This document shows positions 55,852 through 62,563 of a stretch of DNA of 64,000 bases, one piece after another. Both the position numbers and the translations under genes were made by a program. Source of the stretch: Caenimonas soli (GTDB lineage: Bacteria; Pseudomonadota; Gammaproteobacteria; Burkholderiales; Burkholderiaceae_C); assembly GCF_013155545.1 (NCBI RefSeq), contig NZ_JABJVV010000005.1:1-64000 (forward strand), written 5' to 3'. The first letter of the stretch is position 1; the number at the start of each line of letters is the position of its first letter. Below the pieces are notes generated by a model, which saw only the letters and a list, made by a program, of their open reading frames with translations, did no database searches and was not told where the DNA came from.

Positions 55852-56898
55852 ATGGCCAAGACTTTCACGGCGCAGGACCTGCGCACCCGCTGCGCCGCCA
55901 TCGTGCAGGCCGCCGGCAGCGCACCCGAAGAGGCCCGGCTGGTTGCCGACAACCTGGTCCTGGCCAACCTCAGCGGCCATGATTCCCACGGCGTGGGCAT
56001 GATTCCGCGCTACGTCGATGCCGTGCTGGAAGGCGGGCTCGCGCCCAATGCCTCGGCGAAGGTGCTGCTCGACATCGGAACCATGCTGACGCTGGACGGG
56101 CAGCGCGGCTATGGGCAGGTCATCGGTGAGCAGGCCATGCAGCTCGGCATTGCGCGAGCCAAGCTGCACGGCAATTGCATCGTGGCGCTGGGCAACTCGC
56201 ACCACCTGGGCCGCATCGGGCACTGGGCCGAAATGGCGGTTGCCCAGAACCTCGTCTCCCTCCATTTCGTCAATGTCCTCTCACGCCCCGTGGTGGCGCC
56301 CTGGGGCGGCGGCGACGGCCGCTTCGGCACCAACCCCTGCTGCATCGGCGTTCCGCTCAAGGGCAGCGAGCCGTTCGTGCTGGACTTCGCGACCAGCCGC
56401 GTGGCGCAGGGCAAGATGCGCGTGGCCCATAACGAGGGGCGGACGGTCGAACCCGGGTACCTGATCGACGAGCAAGGCAGGCCCACGACCGATCCCGGCG
56501 TCGTGGTGGTACCGCAGGCGAACGGCCTCTTCGGCGCACTGATGACCTTCGGCGAGCACAAGGGCTACGGTATGGCGGTGGCTTGCGAGCTGCTGGGCGG
56601 CGCCCTCACCGGCGGCGGCACCTGGCACCGGGCGCCCGATAGCGCCCGCGCCGTCGTCAACGGCATGCTCACCATCCTGATCGACCCCGCCAGGCTGGGC
56701 ACCCAGGATGGCTTCGAGCAGGAAGCGCTGGCCTTTGTCGACTGGCTCAAGCAGGGACCGGCGGCACCGGGGTCGGATGGCGTGCGCATCGCGGGCGAGC
56801 CCGAGCGAGAGGCGCGAACGCGGCGCGAGCGCGAGGGCATCGCCATAGACGACCAGACCTGGGCGGAAATTCTGGCCGCGGAAAAGAAACTAGGCTGA
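55852..56898 (+). CDS. Ldh/MDH-family (type 2) NAD(P)-dependent dehydrogenase
   Basis: This 348-residue protein of the malate/L-lactate/sulfolactate/ureidoglycolate dehydrogenase family has GHDSHGVGMIPRYVDAV, GNSHHLGRIGHWAEMA and PWGGGDGRFGTNPCCIGVP. It lacks a Rossmann fold. In this locus it may oxidise the released 2-hydroxy acid or a sugar-acid epimer. Its last bases overlap the convergent histidine kinase gene by nine. Confidence 0.88.
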   Translation: MAKTFTAQDLRTRCAAIVQAAGSAPEEARLVADNLVLANLSGHDSHGVGMIPRYVDAVLEGGLAPNASAKVLLDIGTMLTLDGQRGYGQVIGEQAMQLGIARAKLHGNCIVALGNSHHLGRIGHWAEMAVAQNLVSLHFVNVLSRPVVAPWGGGDGRFGTNPCCIGVPLKGSEPFVLDFATSRVAQGKMRVAHNEGRTVEPGYLIDEQGRPTTDPGVVVVPQANGLFGALMTFGEHKGYGMAVACELLGGALTGGGTWHRAPDSARAVVNGMLTILIDPARLGTQDGFEQEALAFVDWLKQGPAAPGSDGVRIAGEPEREARTRREREGIAIDDQTWAEILAAEKKLG

Positions 56899-57696
56899 AG
56901 GGCAAGGAAGCGGAACCGCGAGGCTGATGCGCGTTCCGCCCTCCTGCTGCTCGATCAGCTTCAAGGCCGCCCCGATCTGCTCTGCCCGCTGTTTCATGCT
57001 GGCCACGCCCCTGCCCATGTAAGTCGACCCCGACTTGTCCTCTGGCGAAGCGAGGCCGCGGCCGTTGTCTATGACCTCCAGCAGCAGCACGCCGCCACGT
57101 GGCGGGCAGCTGAGCTTGACCACCAGCTGGGTGGCGTGGGCATGCTGCAGCACATTGCTCAGCGCCTCCTGAACGAGCCGGATGAAGTGCCGCGCTGCCG
57201 GCCCCACGAGCACATCGTCCGGGATATCTTCGTCCACCTGCCAGATCAACTCCAGGCCCTGCCTATCCAGGATAGGCTGGATGCGGTAGCGCAGGTTCGC
57301 CATCGCCTCGACGATGGGAACGCTATTCGACTGCGCCCAGTGCACCACCGTGTGGAGTTCCAGAACCGCCAGTTCGAGCGCGAGCCGAACATCCGCGGCG
57401 GTTGCTTCCGTGGTGTTCCGGGCAAGCGAAAGCGCGGTTACCAACTGGAAGCCCAGCCCGTCATGCAGGTCACGCGCGATTCTCACGCGCTCGGCCTCGA
57501 GCTCTTTGGATATGCGCGCCGCGCGCCGCTTGAAATAGGCCAACATCGTCAAGATGAGGGCCCCGACGTCGAATGCCAATATCAACCCGGTTGCGGCCCT
57601 GACCTCGAAAATCCGCGCAAGAACATCTATCGCCAGATGGCAGAGCATCAAGCCCGTGGTCACGGCAAGCAGCAGGTCGACGCGCAGCGATTTCAT
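56890..57696 (-). CDS. NarL-type sensor histidine kinase, short
   Basis: This 268-residue kinase has two N-terminal membrane helices (about 7-28 and 36-55) with almost no periplasmic loop. The HisKA_3 box follows with H78 (RIARDLHDGLG). The ATPase domain has EALSNVLQHAHA (N box) and EVIDNGRGL (G1). There is no recognisable sensor domain, so it may sense membrane state or a partner protein. It lies 22 bases downstream of the response regulator gene, in one operon. Confidence 0.88.
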   Translation of the reverse strand: MKSLRVDLLLAVTTGLMLCHLAIDVLARIFEVRAATGLILAFDVGALILTMLAYFKRRAARISKELEAERVRIARDLHDGLGFQLVTALSLARNTTEATAADVRLALELAVLELHTVVHWAQSNSVPIVEAMANLRYRIQPILDRQGLELIWQVDEDIPDDVLVGPAARHFIRLVQEALSNVLQHAHATQLVVKLSCPPRGGVLLLEVIDNGRGLASPEDKSGSTYMGRGVASMKQRAEQIGAALKLIEQQEGGTRISLAVPLPCPSA

Positions 57697-57718
57697 CGCC
57701 AGCTCGTTCCGTCAGAAG

Positions 57719-58507
57719 TCACAGAAACCCCCAGGTGCTGGCGCAGCTCACGGCCTGCGCCCGGGTTCTGACGTGGAGCTTGTGATAGATGTTCTTCACA
57801 TGCGTATTGACCGTCAGGTCGCTGATGGCGAGCCGGCTGGCGATCTCCGCGCTGGTGAAACCATTCGCGATCATTCGCAGGATTTCCCTCTCGCGATCCG
57901 ATAGCTTGCTCGGACCTTTGCTGGATGGGTATGAGCCTTCGGCCCGGGACTTGTTGCGATCCATTTTCAGCAGGAGCCGCCGCGCGAGGCTGGGTGTTAT
58001 CGATGCACCCCCGTTGGCCACCTGCAGCACAGCCTGGACAAAGCTGCCAAACCAGGAATTTTTGACCAGAAACCCGGCGGCGCCCAGGTCGAACGCGCGC
58101 ATCGCATCGTCATCCCCCTCCAGTATGGAAACCACGACGACCTCCGCCGTGCCGCGAATGTGCTTCGCGTAGGTGATGAGGTCGTAACCGATGCCGTCGC
58201 CCAGGTTGAGGTCCACCAGCATCACCTCGAAGTCGTGTTCGCGTACCAGCCGCCGACCTTCCCGCAGCGTTTCTGCTTGCCCCACGACAACGGTGCGAGG
58301 GTCGCTCATGAGTTCCTGCGATATGACCCGTCGGATGTGCGGGTCGTCGTCGACCACGACGACTCGTATGGGTTTTTCGGCTTGGCCAGCAAGGTAATCG
58401 GGCCACACCGACGGCGGATTGTTGTGTGTCGCGAACTGGAATTGTCCAGCCCCAGGTGCTACTGGTTGCTGCGGTGCCGGGGCACTTTCGCTGACTTCGT
58501 TCAACAC
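57719..58507 (-). CDS. LuxR/NarL-type response regulator, CsgD-like position
   Basis: This 262-residue regulator has a Pro/Ala-rich N-terminal extension (about 1-45). The receiver domain shows D53-D54-D55, phospho-acceptor D99 (MLVDLNLGDG) and K149 (FLVKN). The LuxR HTH is at about 193-255 (LSDREREILRMIANGFTSAE). GTG 58507 is the apparent start. It is transcribed divergently from the exported repeat protein gene, the same layout as csgD relative to csgBA. A palindrome lies in the gap between them. All phosphorylation residues are intact. Confidence 0.88.
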   Translation of the reverse strand: MLNEVSESAPAPQQPVAPGAGQFQFATHNNPPSVWPDYLAGQAEKPIRVVVVDDDPHIRRVISQELMSDPRTVVVGQAETLREGRRLVREHDFEVMLVDLNLGDGIGYDLITYAKHIRGTAEVVVVSILEGDDDAMRAFDLGAAGFLVKNSWFGSFVQAVLQVANGGASITPSLARRLLLKMDRNKSRAEGSYPSSKGPSKLSDREREILRMIANGFTSAEIASRLAISDLTVNTHVKNIYHKLHVRTRAQAVSCASTWGFL

Positions 58508-58910
58508 ATCGCCTCCGTTGTTTTTGGATGATTCACCCCCGATGGGATCGCGGGTAATTGCCGTTTGGACAAAGATTACCCGCTCTGGGAAAGACGTGTA
58601 AAAAAATAACTCATCACTTGGCTGATTTACCTGGGTTTCTGATGCTTACTACCGCAAATTTACTGGATGAGTTCTCGGCGCCCCGCGGTTTTCGCCAGCC
58701 CTGTCCTAGCGATCCGGCGGCTGGGCTCACTACTGCCGAGGTCAATCCCGGTAACCGGTGCGAGGCATTGGCTCGTTGGCCTGCGGCCCCGAGACTGAAC
58801 CCAGACAGTGCGCAAAGCGAAACAAACGCCGATCGCGCTGTCGGGCCGGCTTTGCCGCGGAGCTTCCCCGGCGCAGCCTTTCATCCGTACTGCGATACAA
58901 GGAACCCATC
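58508..58910. other. 403-bp divergent promoter region
   Basis: No gene is supported here. The region holds a 34-bp palindrome (58550-58583) and an AT-rich block (about 58597-58670) unusual for this genome, followed by a GC-rich leader of about 240 bases before the repeat-protein gene. Such a long leader suggests a regulated 5' untranslated region. Confidence 0.6.
58550..58583. promoter_or_regulatory. palindromic operator candidate
   Basis: GCGGGTAAT (58550-58558) and ATTACCCGC (58575-58583) are perfect 9-bp inverted arms with a 16-bp spacer. The site lies 42 bases upstream of the response regulator start, between it and the divergent exported-protein operon. No T-run follows, so it is not a terminator. 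Confidence 0.6.
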
Positions 58911-59378
58911 ATGAAATCACTTGCATTGTTTGCCCTGAGCGTCGTGGCGACCGCAGCCATGGCCGTCGAACCGGCAGACGAAATCGTCATCAATGGAAAC
59001 TCTACCCAGGCGGTCTCGCTGACCCTGTCGGCCGTGAGCAACACGGCGAACGAGAACACCACTGCCTTGCAAAACCTGGCCAGCAACTCCGGCAACGTGC
59101 GCGTCAGGGCCGGTGGCAATTCGACGCAGGCCGTCGTGGGCGTGGGCTCCTACGTGACCAATTCGGCTGACGGCTACCAAGCCTTCGCCAACCAGAACCT
59201 GTCCTCCAACATGGGCGACGTGACGATCGGCGGAGACTCCGTGCAGATCACCAGCCTGCTCATCTCCTCGGTCACCAATACCGCGGACGGCGCGCACAGC
59301 AAAGCGGTGCAGAACATCGCCAGCAACAACAGCTGCTTCGGCTGCCCCGACCGTCATAGCAACAACGGCCCGCGCTAA
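58911..59378 (+). CDS. exported Gln/Asn-rich repeat protein, curlin-like candidate
   Basis: This 155-residue protein has a signal peptide (1-18, cut after AMA). Three repeats of about 40 residues follow (28-67, 68-106, 107-141). Aligned positions are STQ/STQ/SVQ at 31, 71, 110; N-T/S-A at 44, 84, 123; and QN(L/I)(A/S)SN at 54, 95, 134. Gln recurs every 21-22 residues, close to the curlin repeat period, and the repeats lack Pro, as expected for a beta-solenoid amyloid subunit. A C-terminal SCFGCP adds two Cys. ATG 58911 follows a GGAA-type RBS. I do not recognise it as any named family; the curlin analogy is inference. Confidence 0.75.
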   Translation: MKSLALFALSVVATAAMAVEPADEIVINGNSTQAVSLTLSAVSNTANENTTALQNLASNSGNVRVRAGGNSTQAVVGVGSYVTNSADGYQAFANQNLSSNMGDVTIGGDSVQITSLLISSVTNTADGAHSKAVQNIASNNSCFGCPDRHSNNGPR

Positions 59379-59395
59379 TCAAGTCGCGTCCCTCA

Positions 59396-59433
59396 AGGTG
59401 GCGCCCAACCCTACCCGGGCGACGGCGCCACCT
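59396..59433 (+). other. intra-operon RNA hairpin
   Basis: AGGTGGCGCC (59396-59405) and GGCGCCACCT (59424-59433) are perfect 10-bp arms around an 18-base loop. No proper U-tract follows. It lies between the repeat-protein gene and the next gene, where it could attenuate or stabilise the upstream message. Confidence 0.6.
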
Positions 59434-59449
59434 GTTCTTCCAGGAGAGG

Positions 59450-59875
59450 ATGATGAATAAACTCATTGGGTGGCAGCGGGCGGCAATGGCTTCGGCCGCC
59501 CTCTTCGTGTTGCCCGCCGGGGCCCAGGCGCCGGGCGAAGATCCCGTCATCCTGAAGGGCAAGCTGTCGATCCAGATGCAGCCCACGAACCCGCCGCCCA
59601 AGTCCGGCAACATCGAGAGCAAGGCGGGGATGCCGGCGGCGACGCGGGCCCGCGTTGCACGCTACGAGGCCAAGTCGTTCTCAGCCGACACCACGGGCAT
59701 CGCGACCGACAGCGACGCGGTCAACGCCGCCACGGCGGAGGGAATGCACAAGACCTGCGTCCAGGAGGTGGGCAGCAATACCGTGGCCAACCCCACGCCC
59801 GGAACTAAATACGGCCCCAACCAGGCACCCCAGATCGTCGTGCTGCGCGGCGACCTGGTCAACATATGCAGATAG
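59450..59875 (+). CDS. small exported protein of the curli-like operon
   Basis: This 141-residue protein has a signal peptide (about 1-26, cut after AQA). The mature part has VILKGKLSIQMQPTNPPPKS and two Cys (KTCVQE and NICR). I recognise no family. By position it could be a minor subunit or a secretion accessory comparable in role to CsgE/F or HfaA, but no sequence motif proves this. AGGAGAGG supports the start at 59450 or the ATG three bases later. It overlaps the lipoprotein gene by ten bases, implying coupled translation. Confidence 0.65.
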   Translation: MMNKLIGWQRAAMASAALFVLPAGAQAPGEDPVILKGKLSIQMQPTNPPPKSGNIESKAGMPAATRARVARYEAKSFSADTTGIATDSDAVNAATAEGMHKTCVQEVGSNTVANPTPGTKYGPNQAPQIVVLRGDLVNICR

Positions 59876-61467
59876 CCCGGACCGCTACCCTGCTGGCGCT
59901 TTGCGCCGCGCTGCTGGCCAGCGGCTGCAGCACGCCCCTGAACGCGCGCAAGGACGCCGCCTACCAATCGCACGCCTATGCCGCCGATCGGCCGGTCGTC
60001 AGGCCGACGCGCTCGATCTCCAGCTTTTCGGAGTCGCTGGTGTGCATGGACCACATGCTGCGCAGCAGCGAGATTCCCACCACGCTGATCAGCAGCAAGC
60101 ACATCCCCGACGTCTCGGGGCGCGTATCGGTCGCGACCAAGGAAATGATCATCACGGCGTTGTCGCAGATGTCCAGGCTGAGCAATGCGTTCCGCTTCGT
60201 CGACTACGAAGTGGACATCGCACGGCAGGACACGGTGCAGAACCTGACCACCATCATGCTCAACACCAACCAGGTCCAGTTGCAGCGACCGGCCCTGTAC
60301 CTGTCGGGCGCGATCGCCTTCGTGGACCAGAACGTCCTGAGCAACAGTTTCGATGCCGCCGTGTCGGGTTCACGCTTCGAAGCCGCCTTCAGCAAGAACC
60401 GCAGTGCAACGATCATCGGCCTGGAGATGCATCTGGGCGACTTCCGCTCGCGCACCCTGATACCCGGCATGGACTCGGCCAACGAGGTGATCGTCGGCAC
60501 CGGCGGCCAGGGGCTGGATCTCGCAGGACGCATCCGCTCCTATGGCGTCCAGTTCAACGTGGGGCGCGACTACACCCAGGGCGCAGGCGCCGCCGTACGC
60601 ACCCTCGTCGAACTGGCGACCATAGAGTTGATCGGCAAATGGGCGCGCGTCCCGTATTGGCAGTGCCTGACCCTCGAGCAGACCCATCCCGATTTCCAGC
60701 GCCAGCTGCGCGATTGGTATGACGAGGGCGGGGCTGCGGCGCAGAGCCAGTTGATCAAGCGGTCCCTGATCAGCCGCGGCTACCTGCGTCCGGGCGACGA
60801 CGGGCTGGCCCCGAACAGCCCCGTATTGCGCGAAGCCCTGGCCCGGTTCCAGGCAGACAGCGGAGTCGCCGTGACCGGTGTGCTCGATTTCAACACCTAC
60901 GAGCGGTCCCTGCGCAACTTCGTGGGCCTGGGCGAGGACGGCAAGCTGCTTCGCATCGGCTGGACAGAGACGGCGCCCACGCGCAGCCAGGCACGCACCC
61001 TGGAGATGCAGATCGAAAACGTCAAGCAGGATCGCAGCACGTTCGAAGTCGGCGAGCAGATCTTCGTGTCGGCCACCATCTCGCGTTCCTCGTTCCTGTC
61101 CTGCTACTACTCGGATGCGCGCGGAGGCATCACCCGATTGATCCCCAACAACTCGAATCGCTCCATGTGGGTAGCGGCCAACCACGCCATCCGCATACCC
61201 GACTGGATGGCCCCGAATCCCGGCTTCATCATGGATGCCACCAGCCCGGGCGTGGAAGGCATGGCCTGCTTCGCTACCGACGACGAGGGCACGGCCAAGT
61301 TGCCCGAAGCCATGCGCGGCCTGTCTTTCAAGCCGATCCCCGGGTATTCGTCGCTGGACCAGGTGGACAAGGCCTACGCCGACGCATGGGGCCCGGACGG
61401 CTACACCAGCAGTACGCTGCGCTGGCAAGTAGGGCCGCGGCGCGCACCCCCGGCGCCTGCGCAATAG
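59866..61467 (+). CDS. CsgG-like outer-membrane lipoprotein with C-terminal extension
   Basis: This 533-residue protein has lipobox LLASGC (Cys21). Residues about 50-265 fit a CsgG-like fold: helix VSVATKEMIITALSQMSRL, strand ALYLSGAIAFVDQNVL, beta-hairpin region IIGLEMHLGDFRSRTLIPGM, and AGAAVRTLVELATIELIGKW before PYWQC. A peptidoglycan-binding-like segment follows (about 285-350, YLRPGDDG...VLREALARFQADSGVAV). A DUF4384-like domain is last (about 390-450, FEVGEQIFVSATIS and GGITRLIPNN). CsgG proper is about 277 residues, so this is a CsgG-PG-anchor fusion. HfaB-type holdfast channels are an alternative analogy. Fold assignment is by pattern. Confidence 0.7.
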   Translation: MQIARTATLLALCAALLASGCSTPLNARKDAAYQSHAYAADRPVVRPTRSISSFSESLVCMDHMLRSSEIPTTLISSKHIPDVSGRVSVATKEMIITALSQMSRLSNAFRFVDYEVDIARQDTVQNLTTIMLNTNQVQLQRPALYLSGAIAFVDQNVLSNSFDAAVSGSRFEAAFSKNRSATIIGLEMHLGDFRSRTLIPGMDSANEVIVGTGGQGLDLAGRIRSYGVQFNVGRDYTQGAGAAVRTLVELATIELIGKWARVPYWQCLTLEQTHPDFQRQLRDWYDEGGAAAQSQLIKRSLISRGYLRPGDDGLAPNSPVLREALARFQADSGVAVTGVLDFNTYERSLRNFVGLGEDGKLLRIGWTETAPTRSQARTLEMQIENVKQDRSTFEVGEQIFVSATISRSSFLSCYYSDARGGITRLIPNNSNRSMWVAANHAIRIPDWMAPNPGFIMDATSPGVEGMACFATDDEGTAKLPEAMRGLSFKPIPGYSSLDQVDKAYADAWGPDGYTSSTLRWQVGPRRAPPAPAQ

Positions 61468-61483
61468 ATAGAGGCACGAAGCC

Positions 61484-62563
61484 ATGCTTGGGGCGGCTTC
61501 CACCTTGCGCCGCCTGCTGGCGGCAGCCGCGGTGTTCGCGCTGGCTGGGGCCGGCCGAACCGGCCCGGGGCAGGACGTCAGCCCGCCGGTGCTCGACCCC
61601 TCCCGGCTGGGCGAGGCCGCACCGCAGTTCATCGAACCGCCGAATGGCGTCCATGAGCGGGCCGTGCAGAGACTGCGCGCGGATGCGGCTGCTGCGCGGT
61701 CCCGCCCCGCTGCGGCGCGCGACGCCGCCTGGTTGCTGGGCCTGCTTGCATTGCACGGCTTGGCCATGCCCCAGGACACTGCCCAGGCGCAAACCTGGTT
61801 CCAGCAGGCCCGGCAACTGGGACACCCGTTGGCGCCGGCCGGTCTCGCGTGGTGCGCCATCGACGGTTGCACGGGCGTTGCGCAACCCGCTGCGGCTCGG
61901 CAATGGCTCGCACCCCTGCGGGAACTCGACCCCGGGCGGGCGCTGTATCTGGAATGGCTGATGGAGAACCGGCTGGCGCCGCTGCAGGTCGCCACGCCGG
62001 ATTTACGGGGCCACTCGCTGCCGCCGCTGCCGCGGCGCGACCTGCTGCTCCGGGCCGCGAGGGCCGGCGATGTCCACGCACAGACAGAGCTGGGCATTGA
62101 AAGCGCCGGCGCAGGCCGGCTGCAGGAGGCAATCGATCAGTTCCGGGCGGCCAGCCGGCGATCTCCGGCGGCCGCCGCGAATGCGGCGCTGATCGGGGAA
62201 AGGCTGGGCCTCGGCGCCGGTCCCCCAGGCTCGCAGGCGGATCAATGGTTCCTGCAAGCGAGGCGCTATCACCGCGGAGAGGGGGTGCCGTCCAACTATG
62301 CCGAGGCGATGAGGCTGTACGAGATGGCGGCGGCCAAAGGCCACCCGCAGGCACGCCGCATGCTCGAGCTGATCTTCTCGCGTCCCGCCCCCGGCGGTGG
62401 AGTCGATATCGCATGGATGCAGCAGTTGGCGCGCATGGATGTTTCGGCCGTCGGCGGGGTCACCTTGCTGCCGCCCACGGTCACCGCCGCGTTGCAACGC
62501 GACCCCACGCCGTTGTATGACCTCGTCCCTGCGGAATGGCGCGGAGCCCGCAGGCCGCCCTGA
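61484..62563 (+). CDS. exported Sel1-repeat protein
   Basis: This 359-residue protein has a signal-peptide-like N-terminus (about 1-25). Ala-rich helical repeats fill most of the rest. A clear Sel1 unit occurs at about 260-290 (YHRGEGVPSNYAEAMRLYEM), and a diverged one at about 75-125 (LHGLAMPQDTAQAQTWFQQA). Sel1 repeats are protein-interaction scaffolds. It follows the CsgG-like gene by 16 bases and is probably a periplasmic partner of that system. Confidence 0.75.
   Translation: MLGAASTLRRLLAAAAVFALAGAGRTGPGQDVSPPVLDPSRLGEAAPQFIEPPNGVHERAVQRLRADAAAARSRPAAARDAAWLLGLLALHGLAMPQDTAQAQTWFQQARQLGHPLAPAGLAWCAIDGCTGVAQPAAARQWLAPLRELDPGRALYLEWLMENRLAPLQVATPDLRGHSLPPLPRRDLLLRAARAGDVHAQTELGIESAGAGRLQEAIDQFRAASRRSPAAAANAALIGERLGLGAGPPGSQADQWFLQARRYHRGEGVPSNYAEAMRLYEMAAAKGHPQARRMLELIFSRPAPGGGVDIAWMQQLARMDVSAVGGVTLLPPTVTAALQRDPTPLYDLVPAEWRGARRPP

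Follow-up and report, generated by a model that had tools for sequence, protein, structure and literature searches.

A candidate wall-anchored HfaB/CsgG-type export locus for amyloid-like repeat proteins in Caenimonas soli

Curli and Fap are well-studied bacterial amyloid exporters, and surveys for such systems use their own profile models. As presented in a part of PMC6173800, FapC is composed of three imperfect repeats with a Q/N-X10-Q/N motif and a conserved CxxC. For the holdfast anchor of Caulobacter, a part of PMC6707917 describes HfaA as a CsgA-like protein whose multimers withstand sodium dodecyl sulphate (SDS) and heat, with HfaB being the likely pore for HfaA and HfaD. Here, a six-gene module of Caenimonas soli was analysed, located at positions 56890-62563 of the window, i.e. 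of the whole 64,000-nucleotide stretch of contig NZ_JABJVV010000005.1 that was studied. The genes of a sensor histidine kinase (HK) and a response regulator (RR) on the minus strand diverge from rep, small, lipo and sel1 on the plus strand, and all six were found at the positions given in a preliminary description of this DNA. The locus probably encodes a wall-anchored exporter of the HfaB/CsgG type for amyloid-like subunits which form a surface fibre, and it is probably neither curli, Fap nor Hfa. At the level of sequence, this reading is carried by the linkage of the genes, the HfaB/CsgG homology and domains of the lipoprotein LIPO, the repeats of REP, and the presence of LIPO relatives beside Q/N-rich repeat proteins; REP itself would be amyloid and secreted.

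Comparison with curli, Fap and Hfa

The locus resembles curli (csgBAC-csgDEFG) in its CsgG-superfamily exporter, its divergent LuxR-type regulator and an exported repeat subunit which is small, rich in Q/N and has Q/N residues 11 positions apart, the spacing also found in CsgA. In contrast to curli, the repeats of REP are about 40 instead of about 22 residues long and REP carries a terminal CxxC, a kinase gene lies beside the regulator, RR has a receiver domain, and the anchor is fused to the exporter. No curlin repeat, CsgE or CsgF match was detected in the locus; in the whole genome, CsgE, CsgF and curlin (PF07012, searched in REP as well) had no match at E≤1, and curli was rejected on these grounds. 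The lack of recognisable CsgE and CsgF noted in the preliminary description was thereby confirmed. At two other loci (G743 and G940) two repeat genes are adjacent and, therefore, a CsgB-like partner may exist there. The Pfam models for curlin, CsgG, CsgE and CsgF all miss this locus. According to a part of PMC12822426, curli operons do exist in Burkholderiaceae.

In the case of Fap (fapABCDEF, Pseudomonas), REP shares the three imperfect repeats, Q/N-X10-Q/N and CxxC given for FapC in the passages cited above, and FapC was the best, though weak, PDB match of the REP model. REP resembles FapC more than CsgA in its three repeats of about 40 residues and its CxxC. Unlike FapC, REP is devoid of long inter-repeat linkers, and the exporter would be of the HfaB type. 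A Fap operon was rejected since no Pfam match to a C39-protease (FapD) or a FapF-like pore was detected among the six genes, to which this search was limited. The closest relative known for LIPO is HfaB of the Caulobacter HfaABD system. However, LIPO has PG_binding_1 and DUF4384 in addition and scores far below the equivalog cut-off of HfaB, neither REP nor SMALL matches the HfaA or the HfaD profile, and the regulators and the Sel1 protein differ. Due to the cut-off and the unmatched HfaA and HfaD profiles, an Hfa holdfast anchor was also rejected.

The exporter candidate LIPO, the repeat protein REP and their linkage

A contig scan with LIPO resulted in 49 loci, which are not independent cases because some of them come from one genome or bin. 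According to the record titles, the loci belong mostly to Acidovorax, Polaromonas, Simplicispira, Comamonas, Ottowia and other genera, which we take to be members of Comamonadaceae. LIPO was present in 49, SEL1 in 48, REP and SMALL in 46 each, RR in 43 and HK in 38 loci. All the misses of REP, SMALL, SEL1 and RR (six for RR) were at contig ends; HK was undetectable in L032, L046, L050 and L055, although the sequence there has room for its gene. When all the neighbours of LIPO were clustered using a home-made gene caller, each of the six families was found in at least 36 of the 49 loci and the next commonest one, presumably Tex, in 20; the limits of the conserved module coincided with 56890-62563.

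In 250 genomes drawn from the family, LIPO orthologues were determined in 30 (E≤1e-100) and REP in 29 (E≤1e-6). Both were present in 29 genomes, always adjacent and with REP-LIPO gaps of 503-1226 bases, while REP without LIPO occurred in none of the 250. The same genome handles appear in the LIPO and REP draws, with 200 matchless genomes standing outside the listing. Conserved co-occurrence, proposed beforehand as a check of the locus, was thus observed both in the 49 loci and in 29 of the 30 LIPO genomes. The remaining genome (G747) had a different exported protein of 96 residues with two repeats of about 38 residues directly upstream of LIPO (L133:5936-6226), possibly as a replacement of the cargo within the family. 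LIPO matches were also obtained in 7 of 61 relatives, the match in G025 being confined to the DUF4384 part. A second protein of the window genome (G000:C49:160760-161092) includes a DUF4384-like stretch (E 4.6e-7), and no Q/N-rich repeat open reading frame (ORF) was flagged around it.

LIPO (59866..61467, plus strand) is a lipoprotein with an HfaB/CsgG-like domain (residues ~11-270) followed by PG_binding_1 (295-346) and DUF4384 (392-472), and the Pfam matches to the latter two agree with the segments pointed out earlier. All 39 aligned sequences share Cys21 of the lipobox. By the sorting rules, a residue other than Asp two places after this Cys directs a lipoprotein to the outer membrane; the residue in LIPO is not Asp, which points to outer membrane sorting. 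The NCBIfam HfaB model NF037935 matched residues 16-257 of LIPO with an E of 1.4e-7 and 31 bits, not reaching the equivalog cut-off of 300, and matched 19 of 39 orthologues (the window and 38 of the 49 loci) at E≤0.01. In the profile-profile comparison, residues ~11-270 of LIPO matched HfaB with 99.4% and an E of 5e-22, the HfaB profile consisting of ten HfaB-like proteins, five of which were above the HfaB cut-off. With the CsgG profile (17 rows with 16 distinct proteins, one of them twice, and a partial E. coli sequence), the value was 6% for the orthologues alone, 90.5% for ten distant relatives and 95.9% with an E of 6e-9 for the pooled set. Pfam CsgG PF03783 had no match in the window genome at E≤1, and the sequence search of solved structures with LIPO gave only chance-level matches.

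Judged by the HfaB and pooled CsgG matches, LIPO is therefore a member of the CsgG superfamily, with HfaB nearest and the CsgG match weaker. The CsgG-like region of the preliminary description holds at the superfamily level, whereas HfaB is closer and the Pfam CsgG model is silent. The LIPO-CsgG alignment spans the stretch which we take to form the pore hairpins in CsgG. PG_binding_1 was found in 38 and DUF4384 in all of the 39 orthologues, C-terminal to the HfaB-like domain. LIPO is likely to be fastened to the cell wall, as suggested by its PG_binding_1 domain, and the fused peptidoglycan anchor proposed earlier is supported to this extent. No account of a CsgG or HfaB protein fused to PG_binding and DUF4384 was found in the open-licence literature, which leaves most subscription journals outside.

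REP (58911..59378, plus strand), the proposed fibre subunit, is, as had been described, an exported protein of 155 residues with three repeats of about 40 residues; it has a signal-like start and a terminal CxxC. Its self-similarity was maximal at lag 39 (0.27), a value reached by none of 2000 shuffles. The Gln period of 21-22 residues reported before was confirmed for three of the five gaps (21, 22, 22) and not for the other two (19, 17): the conserved Gln residues at positions 33, 54, 73, 95, 112 and 134 are separated by 21, 19, 22, 17 and 22 residues, and a seventh one at position 90 is not conserved. A steadier feature is a unit of 39-41 residues enclosing Q/N-X10-Q/N. The number of repeats varies among REPs; three were determined in 34 of 48, with a spacing of 38-41, and all of these 34 have the CxxC.

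The AlphaFold2 model of REP built on a 63-sequence alignment (pLDDT 83.8, pTM 0.71) is all-beta, its strands recurring every 39-41 residues, and replaced a single-sequence model that was set aside at a pLDDT of 39.7. The regular repeat fold anticipated for this gene product was thus predicted, rather than an unrelated one. Among 115 PDB matches of the model, the fibrils of FapC and CsgA were the first and the second, respectively, both weak; bactofilin, ice-binding proteins and pectate lyase also matched and were read as other solenoids. REP is accordingly predicted to be an amyloid-like beta-solenoid. The sequence-based comparisons of REP gave no significant match: the REP profile reached 25% with CsgA/B, 14% with HfaA and 0.2% with HfaD, the search of solved structures resulted in chance-level matches only, and the count of Q-x-G-x-x-N in REP was zero. 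A Pfam match of REP to DIM (E 0.0013, under the cut-off) was dismissed as it is confined to residues 1-30 in the signal-peptide region.

Of 399 genomes of the order, 19 contained LIPO relatives (E≤1e-10), and 14 distant LIPO loci (L072-L075, L109-L118), some from one genus, were studied. An exported, Q/N-rich and internally repeated ORF was found near LIPO in 13 of the 14, the exception being a 6.7-kb contig. The same filter flagged no ORF in a background of 691 kb, made up of the window, two loci in which the match was confined to DUF4384, and the sequence flanking the 49 loci. The filter was fixed after several distant loci had been viewed, and its sensitivity is low: among the 49 close loci it flags only 24, and it misses REP of the window. 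The curlin motif Q-x-G-x-x-N occurred 4-12 times in five of ten distant repeat proteins (L110, L111, L114, L118) and 0 or 1 times in the other five, compared with shuffle means of 0.14-1.08 and with five in both CsgA and CsgB. The Pfam curlin model matched none of nine distant repeat proteins, and REP was not alignable with the repeat proteins of these loci (8%). A two-cysteine relative of SMALL, chosen by eye, was present in 9 of the 14 loci and matched SMALL at E 5e-8. In eight distant LIPOs that were scanned, DUF4384 passed in seven and PG_binding_1 in five, so the wall anchor is typical but not universal.

Two of the distant loci, L073 and L074 (G009 and G007), belong to the genus of the window and carry a distant form of LIPO with 27-29% identity beside 34-residue repeat proteins, adjoining caspase-like genes and a sigma-factor-like gene. 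L111 (7383-8156) and L118 (7113-7811) encode adhesin-type proteins with DUF2807 ('head GIN'), and other distant loci, e.g. L072 and L075, contain OmpA-family genes; both kinds of proteins are possibly extra anchors or surface parts.

Regulators, accessory proteins and control elements

HK (56890..57696, minus strand; homologues in 38 of the 49 loci) has a short hydrophobic N-terminus and matched HATPase_c, with HisKA_3 just under the cut-off (22.6 vs 24 bits). RR, a regulator of the LuxR/NarL type (57719..58507, minus strand, GTG start; homologues in 43), matched Response_reg and GerE, i.e. a receiver and a LuxR-type DNA-binding domain. These Pfam/NCBIfam results, and the Sel1 repeats of SEL1, agree with the classes assigned to the three proteins earlier. 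The receiver of RR has what we take to be the acidic pocket, the likely phospho-acceptor Asp and the Lys, whereas the receiver of CsgD is degenerate; control of the locus therefore looks like that of a conventional two-component pair. The adjacency of their genes suggests that HK and RR are partners. The kinase frame, of 268 codons in the window, extends to about 436-459 codons in L019, L025, L027 and L028, and the sensor part may therefore vary from locus to locus. The kinase gene overlaps by nine bases (56890-56898) with a convergent Ldh_2-family gene (55852-56898).

SMALL (59450..59875, plus strand) is an exported protein of 141 residues, in which an N-terminal PGEDP region and a C-terminal Cys...VVLRGDLVNIC were conserved in an alignment of 37 sequences. 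The profile comparison of SMALL with HfaA (1.4%), HfaD (3.6%) and CsgE/CsgF (<1%) gave nothing significant. SEL1 (61484..62563, plus strand; homologues in 48 of the 49 loci), with Sel1 repeats by Pfam and a hydrophobic N-terminus, is likely periplasmic.

The candidate regulatory element ACTACC (58648..58653, plus strand) lies 262 bases upstream of rep, and its occurrence 243-319 bases upstream in 25 of 43 rep upstream regions, the window included, suggests a function in control. The total GGTAG/CTACC count was in modest excess, 58 compared with a mean of 39.9 and a maximum of 58 in 200 shuffles. A stem-loop with a perfect 10-bp stem (59396..59433, plus strand) lies between rep and small. In 42 of 46 loci the rep-small stem-loop was above the mean of 20 shuffles, often below or at the best shuffle, and it may keep the exporter output below the subunit output.

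Alternative explanations and biological meaning

In the proposed mechanism, REP would cross the inner membrane by Sec and thread unfolded through an oligomer of LIPO, which its PG_binding_1 domain would hold to the cell wall, with SMALL serving as a plug, chaperone or surface tether. Exported REP would stack through its Q/N ladders, the terminal CxxC joining subunits or fibres. The HK-RR pair would switch rep, and the stem-loop after it would hold subunit output above exporter output. The earlier reading of the locus as a diverged amyloid or adhesin export system is thereby supported: the predicted fold of REP is not one unrelated to beta-solenoids, LIPO has its CsgG-superfamily match and the genes are linked. 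The amyloid cargo and its secretion remain the conjectural part.

A holdfast-like anchor, in which LIPO would fix a surface adhesin or polysaccharide as HfaB does and REP would be an adhesin with a beta-solenoid fold that functions as a monomer or short oligomer instead of as amyloid fibres, is rather unlikely. It would suit HfaB as the nearest relative, the non-amyloid solenoids (ice-binding proteins, pectate lyase) among the PDB matches of REP and the DUF2807 proteins of some distant loci. However, no HfaA or HfaD relative was detected among the proteins compared, the FapC and CsgA fibrils were the top two PDB matches, and variable repeat number, Q/N-X10-Q/N and CxxC suit fibre subunits. We find it improbable that LIPO ties the outer membrane to peptidoglycan as a periplasmic scaffold without exporting, with REP and SMALL as periplasmic partners, even if the periplasm is a place where PG_binding_1, DUF4384 and Sel1 domains can serve and neither the genome search nor the SMALL profile comparison resulted in a CsgE- or CsgF-like partner. 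Against this scaffold stand the presumed pore-hairpin stretch in the LIPO-CsgG alignment and the recurrence of LIPO relatives next to repeat proteins that are exported, rich in Q/N and unalignable with REP, which is what an exporter with changing cargo would show. A chance neighbourhood of an unrelated regulator pair, repeat gene and lipoprotein operon, as their differing domain classes might suggest, is hardly credible and was rejected, being contradicted by the synteny in 49 loci and the joint presence of REP and LIPO in 29 of 30 genomes.

Beyond this locus, HfaB/CsgG-type pores of this kind may constitute a third class of bacterial systems dedicated to the export of amyloids, a tentative proposal to which we assign slightly less than an even chance. 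One HfaB/CsgG-type pore lineage, typically carrying a fused peptidoglycan anchor and accompanied by a two-cysteine partner, would have spread through the order and would serve interchangeable, sequence-unrelated Q/N-repeat amyloids, Fap-like here and curlin-like or other elsewhere, with pore and cargo evolving separately. If the proposed reading of the locus is right, biofilm amyloids are undercounted in this bacterial group, there is an amyloid pore that carries its own wall anchor, and the acceptance of different amyloid cargos by one pore type would be directly testable by cargo-gene exchange between related loci.
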